Shown here in pieces: positions 6,096-54,966 of a DNA stretch of 64,000 nucleotides; positions within the stretch are counted from its first letter, which is position 1; every line of letters begins with the position of its first letter. A program made the translations under genes and the position numbers. The notes beneath the pieces were generated by a model that saw only the letters and a program-made list of their open reading frames with translations, was not told where the DNA came from and made no database searches. Location: positions 434,001 to 498,000 of the forward strand of contig VCMS01000021.1 of NCBI GenBank assembly GCA_022539475.1, in the 5' to 3' direction. This stretch comes from Gracilaria domingensis. Lineage: Eukaryota; Rhodophyta; Florideophyceae; Gracilariales; Gracilariaceae.

Positions 6096-6479
6096 CAGAG
6101 CCAGTCAACAGAAATCTGTTCAGATTTTCTCTGGAGTTTTTTATTTTGACTAAAAATCATTTTCATCGCGGCAAATCTGCCACAGTTTTTCCTTTCGCCG
6201 TCGCAAATCGTAGTTTCTCTGGCTCTGTTCATGCATCCTGTACCAGTTGAGAGTACTCGTACTGCTGACCAACTTTTCCGGCCGGTCTCTGTCTGCTTTT
6301 GTCGTGAGTGGCAACTACCTAGGTGAAGCATTCATTACCGATATCGGATCGCCTCGAACGGAGTATTGCTCAGTCTCCGGAATCATAAACACCGATTGAT
6401 CATTTCTTGCTCTTTTGCAAGTTCTTATTCATTTTGCTACCTGAGAGTGTTTGAACTACGAAGCAAATTCTCCATTACC

Positions 6480-7463
6480 ATGAGACCGTTTCTTCTTAAA
6501 GGTCATGAAAGGCCTTTAACCCAGGTTAGGTTTAATCGAGAAGGTGATCTGCTCTTCACTACTGCTATGGACAAATCGCCTACTTGTTGGCGTGCTAGTA
6601 ATGGTGAGCGGGTCGGTACTTACAAGGGTCATAACGGTGCTGTGCGAGATATTGCTATTACCTACAACACAGAGAGAGTGGTAACAGCTTCGGCTGACAA
6701 CTCTGCGATGCTCTGGCGTGCAGGCACCGGGGAAAGGTTGCATGAGTGGCGTTTCAAATCTCCATCCCGTGCTGTCGCGTTCAGCCCTGACGATTGTTAC
6801 ATTGCAGTTGCTACCATGAAGCTTATGGGGCAGCCGTCACTAGTCCATATATTCGAGCACGATAAGCTCTCAAATGAGCAGAATGAAGAACCCGTAATGG
6901 TCTTGGATGGTCATGACGCAACAGTGGTCACTTTGGATTGGTATCCCACTGGGGAGTATTTGCTAACTGCTTCAGATGACGGTACGGTTCGGAAATGGGA
7001 CACGGAAACTTGGGAGGAAATTGACTGTGTGGCAGCGCATAAGCAAAACATCACCGATTGTCAGCTTTCTCAAGACTGCACCATGTTTATCACTTCGTCG
7101 AAAGACCACACAGCCAAATTATGGAGCTTCCATGATTTTGAGTTGTTGAAGACATACTCTGTAGATCATCCGGTGAACTCGGCTGCTTTGTCTCCGATAT
7201 TCTCACATATTCTGCTGGGGGGTGGTCAAGAGGCTAGTATGGTGACGACAACAACTGATCGACAAGGGAAATTCGAAGCAAAAATCTTTCATCTCGTGTA
7301 CGAAGAGGAGCTCGGAAGAGTCAAGGGACATTTCGGTCCTATCAATACTGTAGCATTCTCTCCGGACGGACGAATGTATGTTTCTGGTGGAGAAGATGGA
7401 TTTGTACGGTTGCATGAATTTGACGAAGAGTATTTCGTGAAAGGGAAAGAAGATACAGTCTAA
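6480..7463 (+). CDS. EIF3I: Translation initiation factor eIF3 subunit I (WD40 propeller)
   Basis: A 327-residue WD40 protein matching eIF3i (TIF34/TRIP-1), which is usually about 325 residues. It opens with MRPFLLKGHERPLTQ, the characteristic start of this family, and carries repeated GH...LWR/W-type blades across its length, including KDHTAKLWSF and the last blade at GHFGPINTVAFSPDG near residues 280-310. It belongs to the eIF3 complex that promotes 43S recruitment to mRNA in the cytosol. The frame is open 38 codons further upstream, but the family start argues for the ATG at 6480. No intron is needed. Identification is strong. Confidence 0.95.
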   Translation: MRPFLLKGHERPLTQVRFNREGDLLFTTAMDKSPTCWRASNGERVGTYKGHNGAVRDIAITYNTERVVTASADNSAMLWRAGTGERLHEWRFKSPSRAVAFSPDDCYIAVATMKLMGQPSLVHIFEHDKLSNEQNEEPVMVLDGHDATVVTLDWYPTGEYLLTASDDGTVRKWDTETWEEIDCVAAHKQNITDCQLSQDCTMFITSSKDHTAKLWSFHDFELLKTYSVDHPVNSAALSPIFSHILLGGGQEASMVTTTTDRQGKFEAKIFHLVYEEELGRVKGHFGPINTVAFSPDGRMYVSGGEDGFVRLHEFDEEYFVKGKEDTV

Positions 7464-16183: not shown

Positions 16184-17041
16184 TCACTTTTCTCTACACT
16201 TCTTGGTTTCGAACGCCGTCTGACACAGTTTTAAGAGCGAAGCAGCTTTCATTTGCGGATCATTGGCGTTGGATAGCTCAGTGATGACTGCTACACCGTC
16301 TGCGTCATGGTCAATAACCGACGCCAAGTTATCTTCATTTATACCACCCACGCCGATAAGCATTGTGGCCTTCCCAACTACATTTCGAATCTCTTTTACC
16401 AGCCTTGGTCCTTCGGGTATCTTTCCGGGATGGCTTTGGGTTGAGTACATGGTCCCTACCTGTAGATATGAAGGTTCATGAATATCTTTCACTTGTCGTG
16501 CTGCCTGGGTTGAATGAACTGCACATCCAATTACACTTCCCCGCGGCATAACCTCTTTTGCCTCTGGGAGAAGTTTTCCAATGTCCCTTTCTTTGATATG
16601 GACTCCAAGTTGCCGGTCAATACCCACTACCTCATGCGGATCCATGCCATTAATCGCCAAAGTGTGTGCAGGGACACCGCCAGCCAAGAGAGCTTGAATA
16701 AGCTGTTTTACTTGAGGCGTGGTACTGTTCATATCTCGAACCTGTACTAAGGATACTCCTCCGCACAGAACGGCTTTCACTAGTTGCAGAGTCGCCCCGA
16801 TATTCTGACAAACATTATTAGGGGTAATAAATATAACTGATGGTTTCGATAGAGTTTTGGTATTGCTCACGAGTTTAGTCATACGTGGGGCTGAAACAAG
16901 GCGCTTCTTAGTTTCACAAGAACGAAGAAGGCTGAGCCTACCAAAGGAAGGAAAAGTAAATGATAAGCCCATTGGCGGCGGGAAAAATCTGTCGTCCGAA
17001 GAGCTTCGGTAGTGTGATCCTCTTTTAGTCGGGAGAAGCAT
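16184..17041 (-). CDS. Thiamine-phosphate synthase-like protein (ThiE/TenI fold)
   Basis: 285 residues from the ATG at 17041. The first about 75 residues are Ser/Arg-rich and probably a transit peptide. The remainder is a TIM barrel with ThiE/TenI landmarks: FITPNN, SLVQVRDMN, a LAING strand, GVHIKERDIGKL, IGCAVHST, YLQVGTMYSTQSHPGK, IGVGGIN and a final VAVIT strand. Thiamine-phosphate synthase couples the pyrimidine and thiazole precursors of vitamin B1. Most phosphate-binding and substrate blocks are recognisable, but the first reads QVRDMN instead of the common QLREK, and the strand before helix 3 lacks the usual ND pair. A TenI-like role (thiazole tautomerase) is therefore the alternative. 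It overlaps nothing and is 13 bases from the end of YIPF6 (convergent). Confidence 0.82.
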   Translation of the reverse strand: MLLPTKRGSHYRSSSDDRFFPPPMGLSFTFPSFGRLSLLRSCETKKRLVSAPRMTKLVSNTKTLSKPSVIFITPNNVCQNIGATLQLVKAVLCGGVSLVQVRDMNSTTPQVKQLIQALLAGGVPAHTLAINGMDPHEVVGIDRQLGVHIKERDIGKLLPEAKEVMPRGSVIGCAVHSTQAARQVKDIHEPSYLQVGTMYSTQSHPGKIPEGPRLVKEIRNVVGKATMLIGVGGINEDNLASVIDHDADGVAVITELSNANDPQMKAASLLKLCQTAFETKKCREK

Positions 17042-17300
17042 GTTCAGTTTCTCAATATGCACCGCGGAAGATTGAATACGGAAGTTTGGATAATTCGCCT
17101 CTGATGGTGAAGATTGAACCTGGTGGATATTGTGAAGTTGAAAGACTTCAGCGATGTCATATCACATCAATTCGGCTTCGCCATCATAGATCAAGGTCTC
17201 ATACACTAGAGTTTACGAATCTAGACACATTTAATCTCCCTGACAAATTTCGTTTTCGATCATGTTACAATCATCAAGCGTGATGCTCGTCATGATCATG

Positions 17301-17994: not shown

Positions 17995-20900
17995 TCATAG
18001 TTTCGCAGAATTTTTGTTTCGGTTAATCTCGTAAACGGCTGCGGCTCCCATTCCAGAACCTATACACATGGAGACGACACCATATCGTCCCTGTCTTCGA
18101 CGAAGTTCGTGTATGATGGACACCGTTAGGCGAGCTCCAGTCATTCCTAGTGGATGACCTATGGCAATCGCTCCTCCCATGACGTTGACGATATCTCTGT
18201 TCAACCCCAATTTCTCAATACAGTATTCAGCCTGCGAGCCAAACGCCTCATTGATCTCGAAGAGGTCAATGTCATCTATACTCAATCCGGCTTTTTGCAG
18301 AACGGAAGGTATCGCTACGGCTGGCCCAATGCCCATGATAGCGGGATCAACGCCCACCACGCTGAAAGCCTTCAAAGAAGCTAATGGCTCTAGATTCCTT
18401 GCTTCCGCTTCGGATCGTTTCATTAGCATAACAAGAGCAGCTCCGTCACTAAGTTGGGATGAGTTACCTGGCGTCGTGCTTCCTCCCTTTCTGAAAACGG
18501 CCGGCAACTTTGCCAGCCTATCTATCGTGACGCCCATCCTTACGCCTTCATCGGCGTCAACAGTGATGTCCTTAACACCGGTAACTTTTTTCGTTGCTTT
18601 GTCCACAACCTTCACTCGAGTTCTTATAGGGACAATTTCATGACGCTGCCTCCCAGAAAGTTTAGCTAAAGAAGCTCGGGCATGACTGCAAACCGCGACC
18701 TTATCTTGTCTTTCACGGGAAATTCCGAAGTGTTCGGCAACATTCTCAGACGTTTGCCCCATTGTGAGATAACAACTGGCTGCTTCTGCTCTCTTCCGAA
18801 CCTTTGGATTGGGTCTTAGTTCTGTATTTGTCATAGATGCCATGCTCATGCTCTCTATGCCACCTGCAATTGCGATATTGTAGTGACCAGCCTGTATCGC
18901 AGCTGCCGCATCAACAATAGCTTGCAATCCCGACGAGCATAGTCTGTTGACAGTCTTAACAGGCACAGTCTCTGAAAGACCGGCAATCATTCCAGCTACG
19001 CGGAGCTGGACAACACCTGTATCACCACGTTGCAATGTGGTACCAGTGATTACGTCCCCTACTTCGTCCAAGCCGACACATGTTTCTTTTAGAATGCGCT
19101 TCAGCAAAGGAGTAAGAAGGTCATCGGGTAGAGTGTCTTTGAAGCCACCTCTCCCAGCTCGCCCAACAGCAGTGCGGTATGCGGAAACAACGACGATATC
19201 TTCCGGCATTCCTGGGAAGAGAATTGGGTTGGGAACACTTCCTAACGGCATGACGGCTGTTCCTGATCTTTGAAGGGCAAAAGACGGCCGGAAAAGCGGG
19301 AAACCATCCGAAAGCTCATAGAACATTTCAAGTCTCTTCTTCACACCAAGAGCACCTCCAAACTTCTTCTGCGCCCAATACATTAAACCACCTTTAAAAG
19401 CAGGGAAGGCCATGCCCATGATGGAGCACACATCTAAGTCAGCAGGGGATACTGCTACTCCCTCTGCCAAAATCCGACAACCTTCATTCACGCATGGAAG
19501 CAAAATCATGTCCACAATGTTTTCGTCTGAGAGACTTCCTGCTCTTCTACGTATCCTTTCAATGTAGCTCATGTCCAGCTTCTTACGTGCTTCGTTCAGG
19601 AATGGCGCGATTCCTCTTGGATCGGGAATTCCCATTTTAGCTCCCGGCTTATATGTGTAGACACCACTTCCCGACTTCTGTCCTTTACGCCCTGCTGCCA
19701 GCAACCCCTTCACCATCGAACTGGTTGCCACAGCTCTGTCTGCATACGACGCTTCGAAGACTCCCCCGACTGCAACTCCAATGTCCAGTCCCACTAAATC
19801 CAAAACTCGGAACGGACCTATCGGTATTCCAAATGTCTCTGCAGCACGGTCGATTCGATATGGATCGATGCCTAACTCCACGACTAAGAAACTTGCGACC
19901 ATGCTTTGAGGGAAATACATGCGATTCACGGCAAAACCTGGACAGTTGCCTACAAGTACAGGTATCTTCTTCGCTTTCTTCCCCAGAGCAACAACATCCT
20001 TTATAACTCTCGGGTTCGTTGAGTGGGAACGAACAATCTCAAGCAACGGCATTTTGTGTGCTGGAGAGAAAAAATGTGCTCCAACGATACGTCCTTCTCT
20101 ATGTGCTTGAGGTGCACCCATCCCAATGAGATCAAGATTGATAGTTGAAGTGTTCGTCGCAAGTATGCAATTTTTCTTGCAAACAGACTGAAGCTCCCCG
20201 AAAATCTTTTGCTTCAACATCGGATTTTCCAAAGCGGCTTCTATAACGATATCGACGCCCGCAAGTTGTGCGTACTCCGTTGTTACAGTTAGCAGTGCGA
20301 GTTTGGACGCATGCTTCCCAAGATTCTTCTCTACTCTCTTCTTGGCCGCTTGGGCAAGATTCTCATTAAGTTCTTTGATGACAACAGGAATATCAACAAG
20401 TAGCATCGCAGCCGCAATACCAGCACCCATAAAACCACCTCCAACAACACCAACAGACTTTGCTGGATCACCATCTTGACCAGGATAAGGATCATCTGGT
20501 ATACTGAATTTGGTAGTTCCCCTGGTGGCAAAGAACGAGTGGATTAGACCAAGTGATTGCGGAGATGTGACAAGAGCCATAAACACTCTAGCTTCTTCCA
20601 GTAGACCCTTTCGACCTCCATGACGTACACCGTACAACGAAACGTCAATAAGCGCTTGGTATTGTGCGAGATGCCCTCGGCGTGAAAGTTTGGGCGCTAA
20701 CTTCGAGCTTAATGTCCCTGCAATCTTGACACACTTAGCTTCGTGTTCCAATCTATCGTTCCGATCGATTGTGCATTGTCGTGGAAACGAACCACTGATT
20801 ATCCTAGCGGCAAGCTCAACAGCAGCAGCAACAGGGTCTTCTGCGACGACGTCAATCATTCCAAGGGATTCGGCTTCTCGCGCTTTAACAACAGTGCTGA

Positions 20901-21387
20901 GCAGCATCATTGAAACTGCCTTTTCAAAGCCGATAAGCCTTGGCAACCTCTGAGTTCCACCAAGGCCTGGAATAATACCGAGCTTCAACTCTGGCAATGA
21001 GAAAGTACTTCTCGGCGAAGCAACTCGCGCAGTGCAGCATAAGACAAGTTCAAAGCCCCCGCCAAAGCAAATTCCGTCAACTGCCGCAATGACAGGCTTC
21101 GGTCCATCTTCTGCGAGAGAATAACAACGAGAAGTCTCGGGTGAAAACGTGCTCTCAGCAGTCGAGGCAGAAGCAAATTCTGATATATCTGCCCCTGGAG
21201 AGAAGAAAGTCGCAGATCCAGTGGCAGTAATGACTACAGCCTTCGTGGATTCGCGATTCATCGCCATCGTCAGAGCCTCTGATAGTTTCGTTTGCATGAC
21301 TGACGAAAGTGCGTTCACAGGAGGGTTCTTAAACGTAACGATGGATATCCCATCGTTCCGATGATTGACAACAACTTCCGGCGTCAT
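17995..21387 (-). CDS. Trifunctional peroxisomal beta-oxidation enzyme: hydratase + dehydrogenase + thiolase fusion
   Basis: One uninterrupted 1130-residue frame with three enzymes in pathway order. Residues about 1-290 are enoyl-CoA hydratase, with both catalytic Glu (GGGFELVL at about 112, FSLPELKLGIIPG at about 134). Residues about 305-700 are NAD-dependent 3-hydroxyacyl-CoA dehydrogenase, with Rossmann loop VGGGFMGAG at about 312, catalytic His in AHFFSP at about 437, and NCPGFAVNRM. Residues about 727-1123 are 3-ketoacyl-CoA thiolase, with nucleophile Cys in VNRLCSSGLQ at about 816, NEAFGSQ, His in GHPLGMTGAR and Cys in MCIGSGMG. The C-terminus SAKL is a PTS1 variant, so peroxisomal. The first two parts equal the MFE1/FadB type; thiolase is normally a separate protein. 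All active-site residues look intact. It could carry out the last three steps of each beta-oxidation cycle. Confidence 0.95.
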   Translation of the reverse strand: MTPEVVVNHRNDGISIVTFKNPPVNALSSVMQTKLSEALTMAMNRESTKAVVITATGSATFFSPGADISEFASASTAESTFSPETSRCYSLAEDGPKPVIAAVDGICFGGGFELVLCCTARVASPRSTFSLPELKLGIIPGLGGTQRLPRLIGFEKAVSMMLLSTVVKAREAESLGMIDVVAEDPVAAAVELAARIISGSFPRQCTIDRNDRLEHEAKCVKIAGTLSSKLAPKLSRRGHLAQYQALIDVSLYGVRHGGRKGLLEEARVFMALVTSPQSLGLIHSFFATRGTTKFSIPDDPYPGQDGDPAKSVGVVGGGFMGAGIAAAMLLVDIPVVIKELNENLAQAAKKRVEKNLGKHASKLALLTVTTEYAQLAGVDIVIEAALENPMLKQKIFGELQSVCKKNCILATNTSTINLDLIGMGAPQAHREGRIVGAHFFSPAHKMPLLEIVRSHSTNPRVIKDVVALGKKAKKIPVLVGNCPGFAVNRMYFPQSMVASFLVVELGIDPYRIDRAAETFGIPIGPFRVLDLVGLDIGVAVGGVFEASYADRAVATSSMVKGLLAAGRKGQKSGSGVYTYKPGAKMGIPDPRGIAPFLNEARKKLDMSYIERIRRRAGSLSDENIVDMILLPCVNEGCRILAEGVAVSPADLDVCSIMGMAFPAFKGGLMYWAQKKFGGALGVKKRLEMFYELSDGFPLFRPSFALQRSGTAVMPLGSVPNPILFPGMPEDIVVVSAYRTAVGRAGRGGFKDTLPDDLLTPLLKRILKETCVGLDEVGDVITGTTLQRGDTGVVQLRVAGMIAGLSETVPVKTVNRLCSSGLQAIVDAAAAIQAGHYNIAIAGGIESMSMASMTNTELRPNPKVRKRAEAASCYLTMGQTSENVAEHFGISRERQDKVAVCSHARASLAKLSGRQRHEIVPIRTRVKVVDKATKKVTGVKDITVDADEGVRMGVTIDRLAKLPAVFRKGGSTTPGNSSQLSDGAALVMLMKRSEAEARNLEPLASLKAFSVVGVDPAIMGIGPAVAIPSVLQKAGLSIDDIDLFEINEAFGSQAEYCIEKLGLNRDIVNVMGGAIAIGHPLGMTGARLTVSIIHELRRRQGRYGVVSMCIGSGMGAAAVYEINRNKNSAKL

Positions 21388-22272: not shown

Positions 22273-25200
22273 ATGTATCTCGAAAGGATAATCCTAGATG
22301 GATTCAAGAGCTATGCGTCTCGAACGGAAGTTAAGGATTTTGACTCTTCTTTCAATGCCATTACCGGTCTGAATGGCTCCGGCAAGTCAAATATTCTGGA
22401 TTCCATATGCTTCGTTTTAGGCATTACGAACTTGTCACAGGTTCGAGCATCATCATTGCAAGATCTCGTTTACAAAAGTGGGCAAGCCGGTATTACTAAG
22501 GCAAGCGTCACACTTGTGTTCAATAATGCTGATAAATCTACGTCACCAGTTGGGTATGAGAAGCCCGACCAACTCACAGTGTGTCGACAGATTGTCATTG
22601 GAGGCCGAAACAAATATCTCATCAATGGCATCAACGCTCAGCCGAGTCGGGTTCAGAATCTCTTTCATTCAGTTGGACTGAACGTGAACAATCCACATTT
22701 TCTCATTATGCAAGGGCGAATCACCAAAGTGATCAACATGAAGCCAGCCGAGGTCTTGGGGATGATAGAGGAGGCAGCTGGCACGAAGATGTATGAGAAC
22801 AAAAAGGAAGCTGCGCTACGAACGATTGAGAAGAAAGAGCGCAAAGTGGAGGAGATTAATTCCCTTCTTGTGGACAAAATCAATCCATCTATCGAAAAGT
22901 TGGAGCGCGAACGAAAGCATTACCTGGAGTGGAACACTAATAATAATGACATTGAAACTCTTAGGCGATATGTCACTGCGCACAAGTATTGGCGGGCCGA
23001 ACAATGGCTGGTCAGGAGCTCTGGGCAGGGTTCAGAACTGCACAAGAAGCTGAACGACGCTCAAGAATCCATTGATGACTTAGAAACGGCTCATAAAGAA
23101 GCTTCAGAGAGACTGAAACAACTGCTCAAGAATCATGAAAAGGACCGGCATGATGGGAGTTTAGAGTCAAAACAGGATAAAGTAGACGAGCTGAGCAAGA
23201 AAGTAGTTCAGGCACGAAGCTCTTGGTCTAATCAGAAGACAGCACTTGACTCTGAGCAGAGAAACGTGAAATCTGTTCAGGAAAATCTCTTTAGCCTGCA
23301 GCAAAAGCGCGATTCTCTTTGCGAAGAGATGGCGGCTGCAGAAAAAGAAATCCCGCTGGCTGAAAAGAAGGTGGAGGTAGCTAAGGAAGAATTGGAGTCT
23401 GCTGAAACAGCCATGTTGACTGGAGCAAGTACTCAAGGATCACAGGGATCAAGCGCTGGTTCCATTATTGATCAGCTCGAAGCTGCAAGAAGAGCTACAA
23501 GCAACGCGCAAGCTGAAATAGAGTCACTGCAACTCGAAAAGAGACATGTATCAGAAGAAATGGAAGTCAAGGCTGATCAGCTTTCCAAAGACCGGGCCAA
23601 TGTTCGCAGCTTGGAAAGCAAGAAGAAAAATGCCGAGAAAGCGATCTCAGACGCGAAATTGGCAGTTCATGAACTAGACTTCGACAGTCGAGAAGCGGAA
23701 ACTCTACAGCATCAGTTGCACCAGGAGAAGAGTCAAGTAGCAGCGCTAGAGGAGAAAGTAGACCAGTTTCGAGCTCGTTTGGGAGCATGCGAATTCCGTT
23801 ATTCAGATCCATATCCTAATTTCGACCGTAGAAAGGTACACGGACTTGTTGCGACGCTCATTCGAGTGAAAGATCCTAAATTGACCACAGCGATTGAAGT
23901 GACCGCGGGCGGAAGGCTGTATCAAGTTGTTGTGGACACAGACAGTACAGCGAATGATCTGTTGAAGAAGGGCCGATTACTTCGTCGGGTCACAATTTTG
24001 CCGCTTAACAAGATTAAGCATGAAGTTCTACCGGCCACCAAAGTTCATCGGGCGAAGCAAATCGAGAGGTCGGCGGAACTCGCTCTAAGTCTAGTTGGAT
24101 ACGATCATGAGGTCGTGAACGCTATCGAACATGTCTTTGGCCGCACTCTGATATGTCCAGACATGGATTCTGCGAGAAGAGTAACGTTTGATAGGGCGGT
24201 TAGGACTAGAACTGTTACCTTAGAAGGAGATAGTTATGACCCTTCTGGTACAGCTTCCGGTGGTTCTTCAACACATTCGCGATCTTCGGTCCTGGACCTC
24301 TTAAGCAGTCTCTCCCAAGCTGAATCGGAGTTGGAAACTCATCGTGGTAACGTAGCTCGTCTTCAGAATCGTGTAGACACGGTTAATGAGAGAGCACGGA
24401 GATATCGTCAGCTTCAGACGACAGTTCAGGTTCGCGAAGATGAGGCAAAGCTACTTGAAAAGCAATTAGAGGAGACATCAACTGGAAGACTTATGAAGGA
24501 AGTAGAGCTTTTGCGAAATCGAGTTACAGAGATACCGACCGCTCTAAAGAAGGCCAAAGAATGTCTTCGGGAGAACTCCACTAAAGTCCAGGAGTTAGAA
24601 CATGCTATGGAAGACCGAGAAAGCGCGAAAGAAAGGGAAAAGAAAGAAGCTGAAGCGGCCCTTGCTTCTATTCGTGGGACGTACGAGGAATCCATAGTTG
24701 TTCTTCAGAGCACAAAAGACAAACATTCGCGGCTTCTCGTTGAAATTGAAGCAACTGAGGAGGAGATTGAAAGACTTGAGAAGCACTTTACGGGGAATCT
24801 CCAACCTGCTTTGGAAAAGCTCCGTAGAGAAGTTCAGGTTCTGGAGTCCAAGGCAGTTGACATCAGTTCCATTCTTGAGGATGCAAAAGAAGAGCTGCAG
24901 AAAGAAAAAGATCGACTGGCTAGATCTAATAAGTCCCTAGGGATCGCTCGAAAGAATAGTGAGGAGCTTGCGGAAAAGATTGAGACACTCAATCTTGAAG
25001 TGGCACGGTTAATGAGTCAGGTGAAAGAGTCAGAGCGAGGAAGAACAAGTGCAGAGAAACTAGTAGCAGAATTGGACGCAAAGCATGCATGGATCACCCA
25101 AGAAAAAGATAGGTTCGGAGTTGAAGGTTCTGAGTACGAATTCTCAGAGTCGAAGCTCGCGTCCAGTTCGAAAGAACTCGAAGAACTTCAGAATCGACAA

Positions 25201-25926
25201 GAAAGTCTTTCAAAGAAGATAAACGCAAAGGCAATGCACATGTTCGAAACAGCCAAGGAGGAGTATAGGGGATTGCTGAACAAGAAGAGAATTATCGAGG
25301 AAGACAAGGAGAAAATTGAAAAAGTCATTTCCGGTCTGGACGAGAAGAAGATGGTTGCTGTGGAGAAAACATGGAAGAAAGTCAATGAAGACTTTGGAAA
25401 CATATTCTCGGATTTGCTACCAGGCACAAGTGCGAAGTTGGAACCACCAGAAGGCAAATCTGTAGAGTCCGGCCTCGAGATTCGTGTTGCTTTCGGTGGT
25501 GTGTGGAAAGATTCCTTGTCCGAATTGTCAGGTGGTCAGCGGAGTTTAATTGCACTTTCCCTCATTCTAGCGATGCTCCGGTTTAAACCAGCTCCGATGT
25601 ATATTCTTGACGAGGTGGACGCTGCTCTTGACTTGAGTCATACTCAGAATATTGGCAGAATGCTTCGACGTCATTTCACAGGTTCACAGTTTATTGTCGT
25701 TTCTCTCAAAGAAGGAATGTTCAGCAACGCTAACGTGATTTTCCGAACAAAGTTTGTCAATGGTCTCTCAACAGTGAAACGCACAGAAAACACTGCTGTG
25801 CGTGAAAACATGACATCTCCCAAAGTCCCGTCCAGAATTGCTCCGAGCTCGACATATGACAAGGAGAACATCGAAAACCAATCGAAAGAGAACACAAGAC
25901 GTCGAAAACGTTCTGTGCGGGATTGA
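22273..25926 (+). CDS. SMC2: Condensin subunit SMC2
   Basis: 1217 residues, single exon, ATG at 22273 (MYLERIILDGFKSYASRTEV, the standard SMC2 opening). Walker A is GLNGSGKSN at about residue 32. Coiled coils at about 170-490 and 690-1030 flank a hinge at about 510-680 that includes the DSYDPSGTASGGS loop. The ABC signature LSGGQRSL lies at about 1084 and Walker B PMYILDEVDAALD at about 1107. Length and motif order match SMC2/CAP-E, which pairs with SMC4 in condensin to compact mitotic chromosomes. SMC2 rather than SMC4 is supported by the short N-terminus and the FKSYA start. The last about 50 residues are Ser/Lys/Arg-rich. Confidence 0.95.
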   Translation: MYLERIILDGFKSYASRTEVKDFDSSFNAITGLNGSGKSNILDSICFVLGITNLSQVRASSLQDLVYKSGQAGITKASVTLVFNNADKSTSPVGYEKPDQLTVCRQIVIGGRNKYLINGINAQPSRVQNLFHSVGLNVNNPHFLIMQGRITKVINMKPAEVLGMIEEAAGTKMYENKKEAALRTIEKKERKVEEINSLLVDKINPSIEKLERERKHYLEWNTNNNDIETLRRYVTAHKYWRAEQWLVRSSGQGSELHKKLNDAQESIDDLETAHKEASERLKQLLKNHEKDRHDGSLESKQDKVDELSKKVVQARSSWSNQKTALDSEQRNVKSVQENLFSLQQKRDSLCEEMAAAEKEIPLAEKKVEVAKEELESAETAMLTGASTQGSQGSSAGSIIDQLEAARRATSNAQAEIESLQLEKRHVSEEMEVKADQLSKDRANVRSLESKKKNAEKAISDAKLAVHELDFDSREAETLQHQLHQEKSQVAALEEKVDQFRARLGACEFRYSDPYPNFDRRKVHGLVATLIRVKDPKLTTAIEVTAGGRLYQVVVDTDSTANDLLKKGRLLRRVTILPLNKIKHEVLPATKVHRAKQIERSAELALSLVGYDHEVVNAIEHVFGRTLICPDMDSARRVTFDRAVRTRTVTLEGDSYDPSGTASGGSSTHSRSSVLDLLSSLSQAESELETHRGNVARLQNRVDTVNERARRYRQLQTTVQVREDEAKLLEKQLEETSTGRLMKEVELLRNRVTEIPTALKKAKECLRENSTKVQELEHAMEDRESAKEREKKEAEAALASIRGTYEESIVVLQSTKDKHSRLLVEIEATEEEIERLEKHFTGNLQPALEKLRREVQVLESKAVDISSILEDAKEELQKEKDRLARSNKSLGIARKNSEELAEKIETLNLEVARLMSQVKESERGRTSAEKLVAELDAKHAWITQEKDRFGVEGSEYEFSESKLASSSKELEELQNRQESLSKKINAKAMHMFETAKEEYRGLLNKKRIIEEDKEKIEKVISGLDEKKMVAVEKTWKKVNEDFGNIFSDLLPGTSAKLEPPEGKSVESGLEIRVAFGGVWKDSLSELSGGQRSLIALSLILAMLRFKPAPMYILDEVDAALDLSHTQNIGRMLRRHFTGSQFIVVSLKEGMFSNANVIFRTKFVNGLSTVKRTENTAVRENMTSPKVPSRIAPSSTYDKENIENQSKENTRRRKRSVRD

Positions 25927-33216: not shown

Positions 33217-34512
33217 ATGGTAGCCTCTTCAATCTTCATTTTGGATTCTCGAGGGAAGACTATCATTTCAAGAAACTTTCGTGGAGATGTACCAATGGAT
33301 GTCATAAACATATTCAAACAGAGAGTCTTCGAAGCAGAAGATGACTCCCAAATAACACCATTCTTCAGAAACGAAGAGAAAGGAATAACCTTTATTCATG
33401 TCCGTCATGCTAACATTTATTTGGTCGCAGTAACCCGCCGGAATTCAAACGCAACCATGATCCTTTCGTTTCTATATAAATTAGTGCAAGTCTTCACAGA
33501 GTACTTCAGGGATGTTCATGAAGAATCTATACGAGACAATTTCGTGGTGATCTACGAGCTTCTAGATGAAATGATGGACTTCGGCTTTCCGCAAATATCT
33601 GAATCAAAAATCTTACGAAAGTATATCACTCAAGACTACAATGTGTCGGAGTCATTCGGTGCCTTACCAGTAGCAGCAACGAATGCAGTTTCGTGGAGAA
33701 GTGAGGGGATCAAGCACTCTAGAAACGAGGTATTCCTCGATGTAATTGAAAAGGTTAACATTCTCGTTTCAGGATCAGGGAACCTACTGCGTTCAGAAAT
33801 CGTTGGAAAGCTTGTCATGAAGTCTTATCTGAGTGGCATGCCCAACCTGAAGCTTGGCCTAAACGACAGGTTGCAGTTTGAGGCAAGTGCGGCCCGAGGT
33901 GGCCCGGAAAGGAAGGGAAAGTCCGTGGATTTAGAAGATATTAAGTTTCATCAATGTGTTCGACTTGCTAAGTTTGAAAACGATCGTACAATCTCATTCA
34001 TACCACCAGATGGCACCTTCGAACTCATGAGCTATAGGTTGAACACGCAGGTGAAACCGCCTATTTGGGTTGATGCAGTTATAGAACAAAGAGCTACGCG
34101 GGTAGACTACACTGTGAAAGCGCGGACACAACTGAAACCACGGGCTATTGCGAACAATGTCAAGATTGCAGTCCCGGTGCTTCCAGATGTAGTTTCGCCG
34201 AGCTTCAAATGCACATCTGGAAGAGCAAAGTACGCTCCTGAAAAAGATGCCGTGGTTTGGTCAATCAAACAGTTCAAGGCTGGAAGAGACGCTGTTATGC
34301 GTGGGCATTTCTCACTACCTAGTATTGGGAAGGCGACAGAGCGAGAGAATTCAACTAAGCGACCAATTTCCGTTGAGTTCGAGGTACCATACTTTACAAT
34401 ATCTGGTTTGCAAGTTAGATTCCTGAAGGTGATGGAGAAGTCTGGATATCAAGCAGCGCCATGGGTTAGGTATAAGATGATAGCAGGAGATTACCAAATT
34501 CGTATGTCATAG
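33217..34512 (+). CDS. AP1M: AP-1 clathrin adaptor medium (mu) subunit
   Basis: 431 residues, single exon, ATG in ACCATGGTA. The N-terminal longin-like domain (about 1-140) starts MVASSIFILDSRGKTIISRN, and NIYLVAVTRRNSNA is the family block. The mu homology domain (about 165-430) includes SWRSEGIKHSRNEVFLDVIE, FIPPDGTFELMSYRL, then YFTISGLQVRFLKVMEKSGY and PWVRYKMIAGDYQIR at the end. The SWRSEGIKHSRNEVFLDV stretch is typical of AP-1 and AP-2 mu, and overall the match is best to mu1. AP-1 sorts cargo with tyrosine-based signals between trans-Golgi and endosomes. Length equals the family norm (about 425-430). Confidence 0.93.
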   Translation: MVASSIFILDSRGKTIISRNFRGDVPMDVINIFKQRVFEAEDDSQITPFFRNEEKGITFIHVRHANIYLVAVTRRNSNATMILSFLYKLVQVFTEYFRDVHEESIRDNFVVIYELLDEMMDFGFPQISESKILRKYITQDYNVSESFGALPVAATNAVSWRSEGIKHSRNEVFLDVIEKVNILVSGSGNLLRSEIVGKLVMKSYLSGMPNLKLGLNDRLQFEASAARGGPERKGKSVDLEDIKFHQCVRLAKFENDRTISFIPPDGTFELMSYRLNTQVKPPIWVDAVIEQRATRVDYTVKARTQLKPRAIANNVKIAVPVLPDVVSPSFKCTSGRAKYAPEKDAVVWSIKQFKAGRDAVMRGHFSLPSIGKATERENSTKRPISVEFEVPYFTISGLQVRFLKVMEKSGYQAAPWVRYKMIAGDYQIRMS

Positions 34513-52345: not shown

Positions 52346-54799
52346 TTATACTAATCTGATTCTGTGTTCGGAGGTGTCATAAACCCAAATGTCCAAATCT
52401 TCGTATTGCTCAATCGTCTTGACGAGATCATCCCGTGAAAACCCGTGCTCGTCGCATAACTTTTCAGCGGCGTCTATGTCGATCACTGTTCTGTTGTCCT
52501 TTTCCATGTGTTCACTGACTAGAGTATACAGCCTCCATATCCTACTATCCTCACTGTCGTCGCCTCCCATGTTCCTTTCCATGAAAAGGTCATCATCATC
52601 ATCGTCTTCCTCCCGTCCTCTCTTCCCTTTGTTGCTCCCATCCTCTAACGAAGCCTGACTCGCGCTCATCAGACGAAGCGCCTCATGCAGGTCCTCCAGC
52701 TCAACTCGCTCACAAAGCCTCAGGCGGCAGAGCGCTTGGGCGAGGCGAAGGATGCTCAGCAGTTTTCTTGGTGAGGTGTACCCCTGTGCATCGCGCCCGT
52801 CTTCCACATCCTCCCCGCGCATGGCGACGTAGTTGTTCACCAAAAAGTCAGTTATTCGCCCGTCCTTGGGCACCACGGGGTTCACCTTTCGGGCAGCCGC
52901 AATGTGGGCACGAATAACTTTGGGGCTGATGGCTTCAAAACCTAGAGGAGGATGGGCGCCAGTTCTGTGCACATGGGTGACATGCCTCGCAAGGTGAATG
53001 TCATGCTCATAACTCGGAGCGTCAAGAAGAAGAAAGAGAAGGTCGAAACGAGAGAGCAGAGCAGCTGGGAGATTGATGTTCTCCGCAGGCGTTTTCGACT
53101 TGTTGTAACGCCCGTACGCAGGGTTAGCAGCGGCGAGAATGGAAGCCCTCGCATTGAGACTGGTGGTGATGCCAGCCTTGGCAATGGATACGGTCTGTTG
53201 CTCCATGACTTCGTGAATGGCGGTACGGTCCACCTCGTTCATCTTGTCGAACTCATCGATGCACGCGATGCCCATGTCGGACAGCACAAGCGCGCCACCC
53301 TCGAGCATGAGCTCGTTGGTGACGGGGTCGCGCATGATGGCGGCGGTGAGCCCGACGCCAGAGCTTCCCTTGCCGTTTGTGTACACGGCTCGCGGCGCTA
53401 CCTTGGCAATGTGTTTGAGCAGCTGTGACTTGGCCACACCAGGCTCTCCCATGAGGCAGATGTGCAGGTCTCCTCGCAAGCGCATGCCGTCCGGCAACTT
53501 TTTTGGCGGCGCGCCGAGTAAGAGTAGCAGCAACGCCTTCTTCACATCCACGTTGCCAAAGATCTCCGGGGCAATGGACTTGGCCAACTTGTCGTACACA
53601 TCAGTATCATCGCGAAGCGCAACTAGAGCGGCATTGGTGTCGTCGTCCAGTTCAGTATCGTCATATGTCTTCTTCCGTTGAATGACGTGCGTGGCCTGCA
53701 GAAAGGTGTTTGCCAAAAAGCCTGCCTTGAGCGCCATATAGCCCGTAAACGGAGCCGGCAGAAAGATACCCGACACATCAATAGAATCGCCAGACGTACA
53801 GGTGCGCGTCAGTTCGGCATTAAGCTTGACATTGATTGTCCGCGGAATGCTTCCGATGGGCACCTGGTCGGCCGGTTCCTGCAACTTGAGCTCCTGATAC
53901 TTGACAAACTTGCAACCTTTGTAGTTGGGAATAAGCTCCGTATTCTGCCCCGGCTGATGGTTTGGGGTGGGACACGATAACACAGGCATGTAGGTCTTGC
54001 CACCAACTTCTTGATACACCTCATAGCCGCACGAATGACAGGTATAGGTGGCGACCTGCACGCGCGGTTTGACCTCGGTGATACGCGTGACAATGCCCGA
54101 AACGGTGAGCAATCGTCCCACGTGCTGCGAGCGTACCATGCGCACCGGTACGGACTTTTCGGCGGGCTGTGGAATGAGCAAGGTGTCAAACAGTCTGGTC
54201 ATGGTAGCCGGCACTAGATTTCTGGGATCTGCGGCCGGTCCCGCTGGACGATTGACGTCCTGCACATCGGTGGCCGCCAAGGCAGCATTCTCACTCCTTT
54301 GCTGCGCGTCCCGAAACTGTTCCTCTCTCAAACGCCTGGTCTCCAACAGGGCGTCGACTCGATCACGTGCGCCGTGCAATGGGTTAGGATCAGCGGCTCG
54401 AAGATCTGCCAAGATTTCGTCGGCGGCTTCTGCAAACAGGTGGGTGTATCGAGTGGCATTGGCGACAATCTCTTCATGCAGCAAGGTGGAAATGCCGCCA
54501 GAATTGGCGGGCGCAAAGTTGGAAGCATCCAAACCCCATTTGTAAACGTCGTCGACAAAGATGACGAGCGAGCGTCGCGAGCGCTCGTGAATTTGGTTGA
54601 GCTGCGTCATGTACTTGAGATTGGAGCCGGAAGTGAAATCATCGTCTGCAAAGCTCTTGAGAAACTCTTTGAGGCGTTGACGAATGATAGCGTAGTCCAG
54701 CGCGGCGGACGCGGGCGGCTGCGAAGCGGCGCCCGGGCGGCGCGCGGCGGCGCCGGCGCGCGTGGGGGTGGGCGTGAGCGTGTTCATGGAGGCCATCAT
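52346..54799 (-). CDS. MCM7: DNA replication licensing factor MCM7
   Basis: 817 residues from ATG 54799 (MMASMNTLTPTPTRAG), single exon. The N-terminal domain contains the zinc-finger start CHSCGYEVYQ and the OB-fold block KFVKYQELKLQEPADQVP, typical of MCM7. The AAA+ core has Walker A GEPGVAKSQLL, KGSSGVGLTAAIMRDPVTNE, Walker B LVLSDMGIACIDEFDKM and arginine finger SRFDLLFLLLD. A very acidic loop (EEDDDDDD) precedes the C-terminal winged-helix region. MCM7 rather than MCM2-6 is supported by the SSGVGLTAA and QDQ-like NPAYGRYN regions and by the length. It forms part of the MCM2-7 replicative helicase. An E2F-type palindrome lies about 170 bases upstream. Confidence 0.93.
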   Translation of the reverse strand: MMASMNTLTPTPTRAGAAARRPGAASQPPASAALDYAIIRQRLKEFLKSFADDDFTSGSNLKYMTQLNQIHERSRRSLVIFVDDVYKWGLDASNFAPANSGGISTLLHEEIVANATRYTHLFAEAADEILADLRAADPNPLHGARDRVDALLETRRLREEQFRDAQQRSENAALAATDVQDVNRPAGPAADPRNLVPATMTRLFDTLLIPQPAEKSVPVRMVRSQHVGRLLTVSGIVTRITEVKPRVQVATYTCHSCGYEVYQEVGGKTYMPVLSCPTPNHQPGQNTELIPNYKGCKFVKYQELKLQEPADQVPIGSIPRTINVKLNAELTRTCTSGDSIDVSGIFLPAPFTGYMALKAGFLANTFLQATHVIQRKKTYDDTELDDDTNAALVALRDDTDVYDKLAKSIAPEIFGNVDVKKALLLLLLGAPPKKLPDGMRLRGDLHICLMGEPGVAKSQLLKHIAKVAPRAVYTNGKGSSGVGLTAAIMRDPVTNELMLEGGALVLSDMGIACIDEFDKMNEVDRTAIHEVMEQQTVSIAKAGITTSLNARASILAAANPAYGRYNKSKTPAENINLPAALLSRFDLLFLLLDAPSYEHDIHLARHVTHVHRTGAHPPLGFEAISPKVIRAHIAAARKVNPVVPKDGRITDFLVNNYVAMRGEDVEDGRDAQGYTSPRKLLSILRLAQALCRLRLCERVELEDLHEALRLMSASQASLEDGSNKGKRGREEDDDDDDLFMERNMGGDDSEDSRIWRLYTLVSEHMEKDNRTVIDIDAAEKLCDEHGFSRDDLVKTIEQYEDLDIWVYDTSEHRIRLV

Positions 54800-54966
54800 C
54801 GCGACTGACTGACGACACAAGAAGAAGCGCAAGCAAGATCAAGACAGCCGCTCGCAGCGGAGATAGGTGTGTAGCCACGACGCAGTCACCGAGCAGGGGC
54901 GATTGAAGAGTATGAGCATCGAGTACGAGCGGCAAGCGCCCGTTCAACGTTTGCCGCGTTTCGGCG

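Follow-up and report, generated by a model that had tools for sequence, protein, structure and literature searches.

A predicted PTS1-imported single-chain trifunctional beta-oxidation enzyme in the red alga Gracilaria domingensis

By which route does the thiolase of peroxisomal beta-oxidation reach its organelle in red algae? A red-algal shift of this enzyme to the import route of the type 1 peroxisomal targeting signal (PTS1) was called yet unknown in 2020 in the consulted part of PMC7710942, and a gene in a 64,000-nucleotide stretch of Gracilaria domingensis DNA (contig VCMS01000021.1, positions 434,001 to 498,000; here called the window) offers a concrete answer, since in its predicted product the thiolase forms the hind part of a chain that ends in a PTS1. 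This gene, on the minus strand at window positions 17995 to 21387, very probably encodes a PTS1-imported single-chain trifunctional enzyme for steps 2 to 4 of beta-oxidation. Judged by its sequence, the protein is a fusion of an MFE1 hydratase/dehydrogenase of the plant multifunctional protein (MFP) type with a 3-ketoacyl-CoA thiolase (KAT) of the plant type; on the same grounds we predict that it catalyses all three reactions, resides in the peroxisome and dimerises through its thiolase part, and that it may channel intermediates. Three consecutive enzymes on one organellar chain would be a natural test for intermediate channelling.

One reading frame and three enzyme modules

The preliminary description of this DNA had proposed one 1130-residue frame that joins three enzymes and ends in -AKL, and the open reading frame and Pfam searches bear this out. 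The ATG starts at position 21387, the stop codon occupies 17995–17997, and the 1130 codons are stop-free; the coordinates given earlier were correct and are completed here by the strand, minus, which had gone unstated. The protein was aligned with 14 (alignment A2) and with 49 (alignment A3) other fused proteins. Five Pfam domains follow each other in pathway order, each far over its cut-off and all on the minus strand: ECH_1, the enoyl-CoA hydratase (residues 10–198, positions 20794–21360, E 3.5e-43), 3HCDH_N (residues 312–481, 19945–20454, E 2.6e-45), 3HCDH (residues 484–579, 19651–19938, E 1.1e-22), Thiolase_N (residues 731–992, 18412–19197, E 4.3e-65) and Thiolase_C (residues 1000–1119, 18031–18390, E 6.3e-48). 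Between dehydrogenase and thiolase lie the C-terminal end of the MFE module (residues 580–705, 19273–19650), which matches AtMFP2 and is helical in the structure model, and the junction itself (residues 706–728, 19204–19272). The chain closes with NKNSAKL, of which the last three residues (1128–1130, 17998–18006) are the PTS1-type tripeptide. The thiolase half also passes the NCBIfam acetyl-CoA C-acyltransferase subfamily TIGR01930 (407.1 against a cut-off of 240.55).

The residues presumed, from their families, to be catalytic are E113 and E133 in the hydratase, S414, H438, E450 and N488 in the dehydrogenase, and C817, N1046, H1078 and C1108 in the thiolase. All ten are identical in the 15 proteins of alignment A2. 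In the 50 rows of A3 the first seven, up to C817, are invariant and the last three are conserved at at least 90%, one row (P0125) being broken ahead of these positions. This agrees with the earlier statement that all three enzymes keep intact catalytic residues.

The AlphaFold model of the whole chain is of high confidence (mean predicted local distance difference test score, pLDDT, 91.4; predicted template-modelling score, pTM, 0.89), with the low-confidence tail expected of a free end (residues 1127–1130, pLDDT below 50). By sequence, the nearest solved structures are AtMFP2 (PDB 2wtb) for residues 7–706 (E 6e-149) and AtKAT2 (2c7y) for residues 729–1120 (E 1.2e-126), and the Foldseek search found corresponding folds in 2wtb (template-modelling score on the target, TMt, 0.91) and in the sunflower KAT 2wua (TMt 0.96). 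Of the 50 chains that Foldseek listed, not one spans both modules (best score on the query, TMq, 0.57), and the viral fold library gave no useful match.

Relatives, known systems and import signals

Relatives were taken from the best 120 of 3911 hits in one database search and the best 120 of 7883 hits in a second search, and further fused proteins may exist. In this sample 74 fused proteins were counted, 64 on the red-algal side of the tree and 10 elsewhere, with the fragments P0005, P0065 and P0069 and the broken P0125 included; the label "red-side" mostly rests on tree position, as most of these proteins are unnamed. Left out of the count were the fragments P0218–P0221 and P0247 and six entries for which no thiolase domain was listed (P0061, P0062, P0073, P0075, P0122 and P0123); among the latter, the plant entries P0061, P0062 and P0122, of about 1500 residues, have the look of adjacent genes that annotation has joined. 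The domain order, which the preliminary description had suggested looking for in related algae, is present in Agarophyton, Chondrus, Hildenbrandia, Porphyridium, Pyropia and others. The nearest named relative among the matches listed is that of Agarophyton chilense, also of the Gracilariaceae (83% identity, 97% of the query), with further matches in Hildenbrandia rubra (56% over 100%), Porphyridium (52–54% over 99%, with P. purpureum P0054 at 52%) and an entry that is, to judge by its id, from Galdieria phlegrea (51% over 99%); the Chondrus (68% over 77%) and Pyropia yezoensis (53% over 85%) gene models both miss pieces. P0005 and P0050 derive from transcript assemblies. Outside the red side, the fusion occurs in the amoebozoan Balamuthia (P0072), in sequences without names and in the jakobid Andalucia godoyi (P0124, recognised by a locus prefix matched to PMC7050145).

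The preliminary description knew of no peroxisomal protein with all three enzymes, and this claim to novelty falls with Mori et al. (2016; PMC4928187), the consulted text of which describes a hydratase-dehydrogenase-KAT protein in Cyanidioschyzon merolae (CMR380C) and Porphyridium purpureum and proposes three successive reactions on one chain as a likely red-algal feature. The window protein, which has the same domains in the same order on one chain and is placed in the tree with named red algae, is a further member of this published kind. According to the same text, stand-alone KATs and a mitochondrial set are present in C. merolae as well, whereas in the genome of the window no further 3HCDH or KAT-type thiolase was found. 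The P. purpureum protein P0054 ends in SRL, a point absent from the consulted text of PMC4928187. Within the open-licence PMC literature, no account was found of a recurrent PTS1 outside the C. merolae group, of the jakobid and amoeba fusions or of a contrast between signals of the type 2 (PTS2-like) and PTS1.

Likeness to the split systems is module by module. The front part resembles plant peroxisomal MFP (AtMFP2/AIM1) and animal MFE1, matching AtMFP2 over residues 7–706 and rat MFE1 over residues 14–708, with agreement in fold, and the whole chain carries, by sequence, the C-terminal PTS1 (-AKL) that serves as a criterion for MFE1 and MFP proteins; but bifunctional green-lineage MFPs stop, with a PTS1 of their own, about where the thiolase of the window protein starts. 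The thiolase half is nearest to peroxisomal KAT, as AtKAT2, and has its Cys/His/Cys residues, yet KATs of this type have an N-terminal PTS2 presequence (typically, if not universally), whereas the window protein is without one and has the PTS1 end instead. FadB-FadA and the mitochondrial trifunctional protein carry out the same three reactions on separate alpha and beta chains, in contrast to the one chain found here, and membership of these families was rejected by NCBIfam scores (FadJ, 409.8 vs 869; FadB, 384.6 vs 870; mitochondrial alpha, 314.4 vs 964.65).

The import signals divide the fused proteins. A strict PTS1, defined as [SAC][KRH][LM], stands at the C terminus of 50 of the 64 red-side proteins, and a PTS1-like tripeptide, [SACGP][KRH][LMI], a looser class defined after the ends were seen, in 61, with variable residues ahead of it. 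The plant-type PTS2 pattern is absent from the first 40 residues of all 64, the window protein among them; a looser PTS2 pattern, applied to residues 1–60, gave one red-side match, P0021, which lies within the hydratase region. Among the ten non-red fused proteins neither PTS1 class was found (0/10, nine being informative because P0125 is broken ahead of its true C terminus). Four of them (P0072 of Balamuthia, P0074, P0124 and P0125) show the motif R[LQTIMAVR]x5HL within their first 40 residues, where shuffling expects 0.022. This pattern had been widened, by Arg at position 2, after the sequences were viewed, and P0125 is the sole match without the widening; the stricter Petriv pattern fits none of the four. 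With P0074 and P0124 closely related, about three of the cases are independent, and these N-terminal motifs are best called PTS2-like and not proven PTS2. P0070 and P0071 are possibly incomplete at the N terminus. P0066, P0067, P0068 and P0126 lack a PTS1 and show no clear PTS2-like motif; the gene id of P0126 is, we presume, Cyanophora-like. Of the 120 best listed thiolase matches of stand-alone length, a few of which are fused fragments, 99 contain the widened pattern within residues 1–60 and 100 were counted there with a PTS2 pattern in a separate scan, in keeping with the earlier view that this thiolase is of a kind normally imported by PTS2.

The genomic setting and other readings of the gene

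Searches of the own genome covered 77.9 Mb in 680 contigs. It holds one 3HCDH_N and one 3HCDH match, both within the trifunctional gene, and Thiolase_N and Thiolase_C each match at two loci, the trifunctional gene and an acetyl-CoA acetyltransferase-like gene. Being of that kind, the latter was rejected as a separate PTS2 or KAT-type thiolase; it ends in -ASDTK, and its apparent N terminus, in a provisional gene model, is without a PTS2 by eye. A separate PTS2 thiolase gene, which the preliminary description had named as evidence to the contrary, was accordingly not found with the two thiolase profiles, and the Pfam searches recognised neither a second 3HCDH locus nor a further thiolase of the 3-ketoacyl-CoA type in the genome. 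No report of a florideophyte genome in which these further loci were not found turned up in the open-licence PMC literature. The hydratase is not unique, as there are 13 ECH_1 matches. Acyl-CoA dehydrogenase profiles match at three places, of which one is an acyl-CoA oxidase (ACOX) and one has internal stops. Two ACOX frames, L019 on contig C216 (-NSRARL) and L020 on contig C26 (-NSRSRL), both have PTS1-type ends, and one Pex14_N match supports the presence of peroxisomes. Plant MenB is a PTS2 protein; the nuclear MenB (1,4-dihydroxy-2-naphthoyl-CoA synthase, over its NCBIfam cut-off; L021, positions 1300–2301, contig C111) ends here in the PTS1-like -RRAHL and could be another protein that has changed over to the PTS1 route. 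A provisional AtPEX7 query retrieves yeast PEX7 from PDB at 204.6 bits, and with it PEX7 was not recognised in the genome, where none of 134 matches exceeds 70.9 bits (125 of 282 candidates scored exon by exon). The best of these matches is beta'-COP and the second WDR5, and for a frame that aligns with PEX7 over 25–305 no PEX7 appears among the 60 of 503 PDB matches listed. PEX7 is reported absent in C. merolae (PMC7710942) and in Galdieria sulphuraria (PMC8172628), as far as the consulted parts of these papers go.

In the pathway that these genes suggest, acyl-CoA oxidases with PTS1-type ends would produce 2-trans-enoyl-CoA, and the trifunctional protein would hydrate it, oxidise the L-3-hydroxyacyl-CoA using NAD+ and cleave the 3-ketoacyl-CoA using CoA. 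The whole chain would be imported into the peroxisome by PEX5 via its C-terminal -AKL, so that the thiolase would need neither PTS2 nor PEX7. Several observations weigh against this reading. A further acyl-CoA dehydrogenase locus, on C150, is without internal stops and, together with the other ECH loci, makes it possible that other beta-oxidation steps take place elsewhere in the cell. The PEX7 search, with its provisional query, partly scored candidates and no positive-control genome, does not prove PEX7 absent. Some of the red-side ends are weak or unproven as signals (GKL in seven proteins, AKI in two, SKI and PKL in one each), and three red-side proteins end without a PTS1-like tripeptide (AML, AAL and AAL). 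Finally, in the consulted text of PMC4928187 the C. merolae protein is not peroxisomal in any green fluorescent protein construct, and a targeting signal was not found in it, whereas the window protein ends in AKL.

The C. merolae result is what could be said for a real trifunctional chain that is cytosolic, as proposed for that alga, and in which the AKL end is incidental. We consider this unlikely for the window protein, since PTS1-like ends persist across the red side despite the variable residues ahead of them, since both ACOX frames found in the genome have such ends as well, and since the red-side proteins without one (P0060, P0063 and P0064) form a separate branch; if this branch is the C. 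merolae group, the C. merolae result need not carry over. The peroxisomal chain could also be a precursor that is cleaved, once imported, at or close to the junction, the working enzymes being separate. PTS2 thiolases elsewhere are processed by a peroxisomal protease (compare Tysnd1), which counts in favour of such a cut, but the junction is short, confidently modelled (mean pLDDT 86–93 in the ten-residue blocks of 701–730) and of near-constant length on the red side, so that cleavage has in our judgement only a small chance of being correct. The distance between the end-of-MFE motif and the start of the thiolase is 32–33 residues in the nine red-side proteins caught by the search pattern, out of 13 asked, and 32 in a red-algal fragment; P0060 is exceptional, with five residues more than the window protein in alignment A2. 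The bifunctional MFPs P0128, P0083 and P0117 end in their PTS1 28–32 residues past the shared motif (three of the four asked; the pattern missed P0196).

The same region bears on whether two neighbouring genes were fused by an error of assembly or annotation. The window junction, LFRPSFALQRSGTAVMPLGSVPNPILFPGMPEDIVVVSAYRT, has the same length and almost the same letters in A. chilense P0002 and in the assembled transcript P0005, which makes a hidden splice site or misassembly at this point very unlikely, and the fusion, with a like junction, occurs in numerous separate genomes as well as in entries derived from transcripts. Beyond the caution in the preliminary description, nothing was found that speaks for an artefact. 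The assembly error or hidden splice site named earlier as a possible refutation is thus rejected, the chance of an artefact being close to nil, and a single trifunctional chain imported through PTS1 is the reading we retain.

History of the fusion and neighbouring genes

The two halves of the protein were placed in separate trees built from 18 of the 64 red-side rows and all 10 other fused rows, which P0247 joined for the thiolase half. To these were added 12 bifunctional MFPs, 30 stand-alone thiolases out of 120 rows, and 7 or 14 bacterial rows. Animal, fungal and most protist split enzymes lay outside this sample; all trees were of the "quick" kind, some branches, several of them key, are weak, and the long bacterial branches were flagged by the tool. 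The 18 red-side rows, named red algae among them, form one clade in both half-trees (starred branch values of 100 and 99), and the 12 bifunctional green-lineage MFPs and the 30 stand-alone thiolases form one clade each (a starred 95, and 86). Under bacterial rooting both split-enzyme clades nest among the fused proteins. An exclusive clade of all fused proteins is not the best tree in either half and is not rejected (approximately unbiased, AU, test, p 0.122 and 0.262; leaving out P0074 and P0124, plus L043 from the thiolase set, gives 0.329 and 0.195).

The half-trees would fit one old fusion that was later split in the green line, and repeated fusion or gene transfer is a possible origin of the distribution of the fused proteins. 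Tentatively, and with more doubt than confidence, we suggest that the trifunctional chain is an old eukaryotic design and not a red-algal invention, and that red algae swapped a PTS2-like signal for PTS1 as the PEX7/PTS2 route was lost. If this is true, a later gene split could have given rise to plant MFP (PTS1) and thiolase (PTS2) as separate proteins, which would reverse the usual fusion story. The PTS2-like relatives outside red algae make such a history of signal swapping testable, and this broader picture holds more interest than the one gene does. A bacterial origin of the fusion was also considered and rejected: among the 80 bacterial loci of a capped list (595 stretches matched before the cap) no plus-strand frame of at least 350 residues matched both halves, and the apparent full-length match at bacterial locus L029 consists of two frames with a stop between them.

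The neighbourhood of the gene in the window is that of an ordinary nuclear locus. Downstream on the same strand lies a TMP-TENI frame (thiamine monophosphate synthase-like, 16184–17062, minus), and divergent from the trifunctional gene lies one open frame for a 1217-residue SMC protein (22273–25926, plus; Pfam SMC_N and hinge), which we take to resemble condensin SMC2. A Pfam scan of 10 frames also recognised eIF3I (6366–7463, plus), an adaptor medium subunit (33217–34512, plus) and an MCM helicase (52346–54832, minus).

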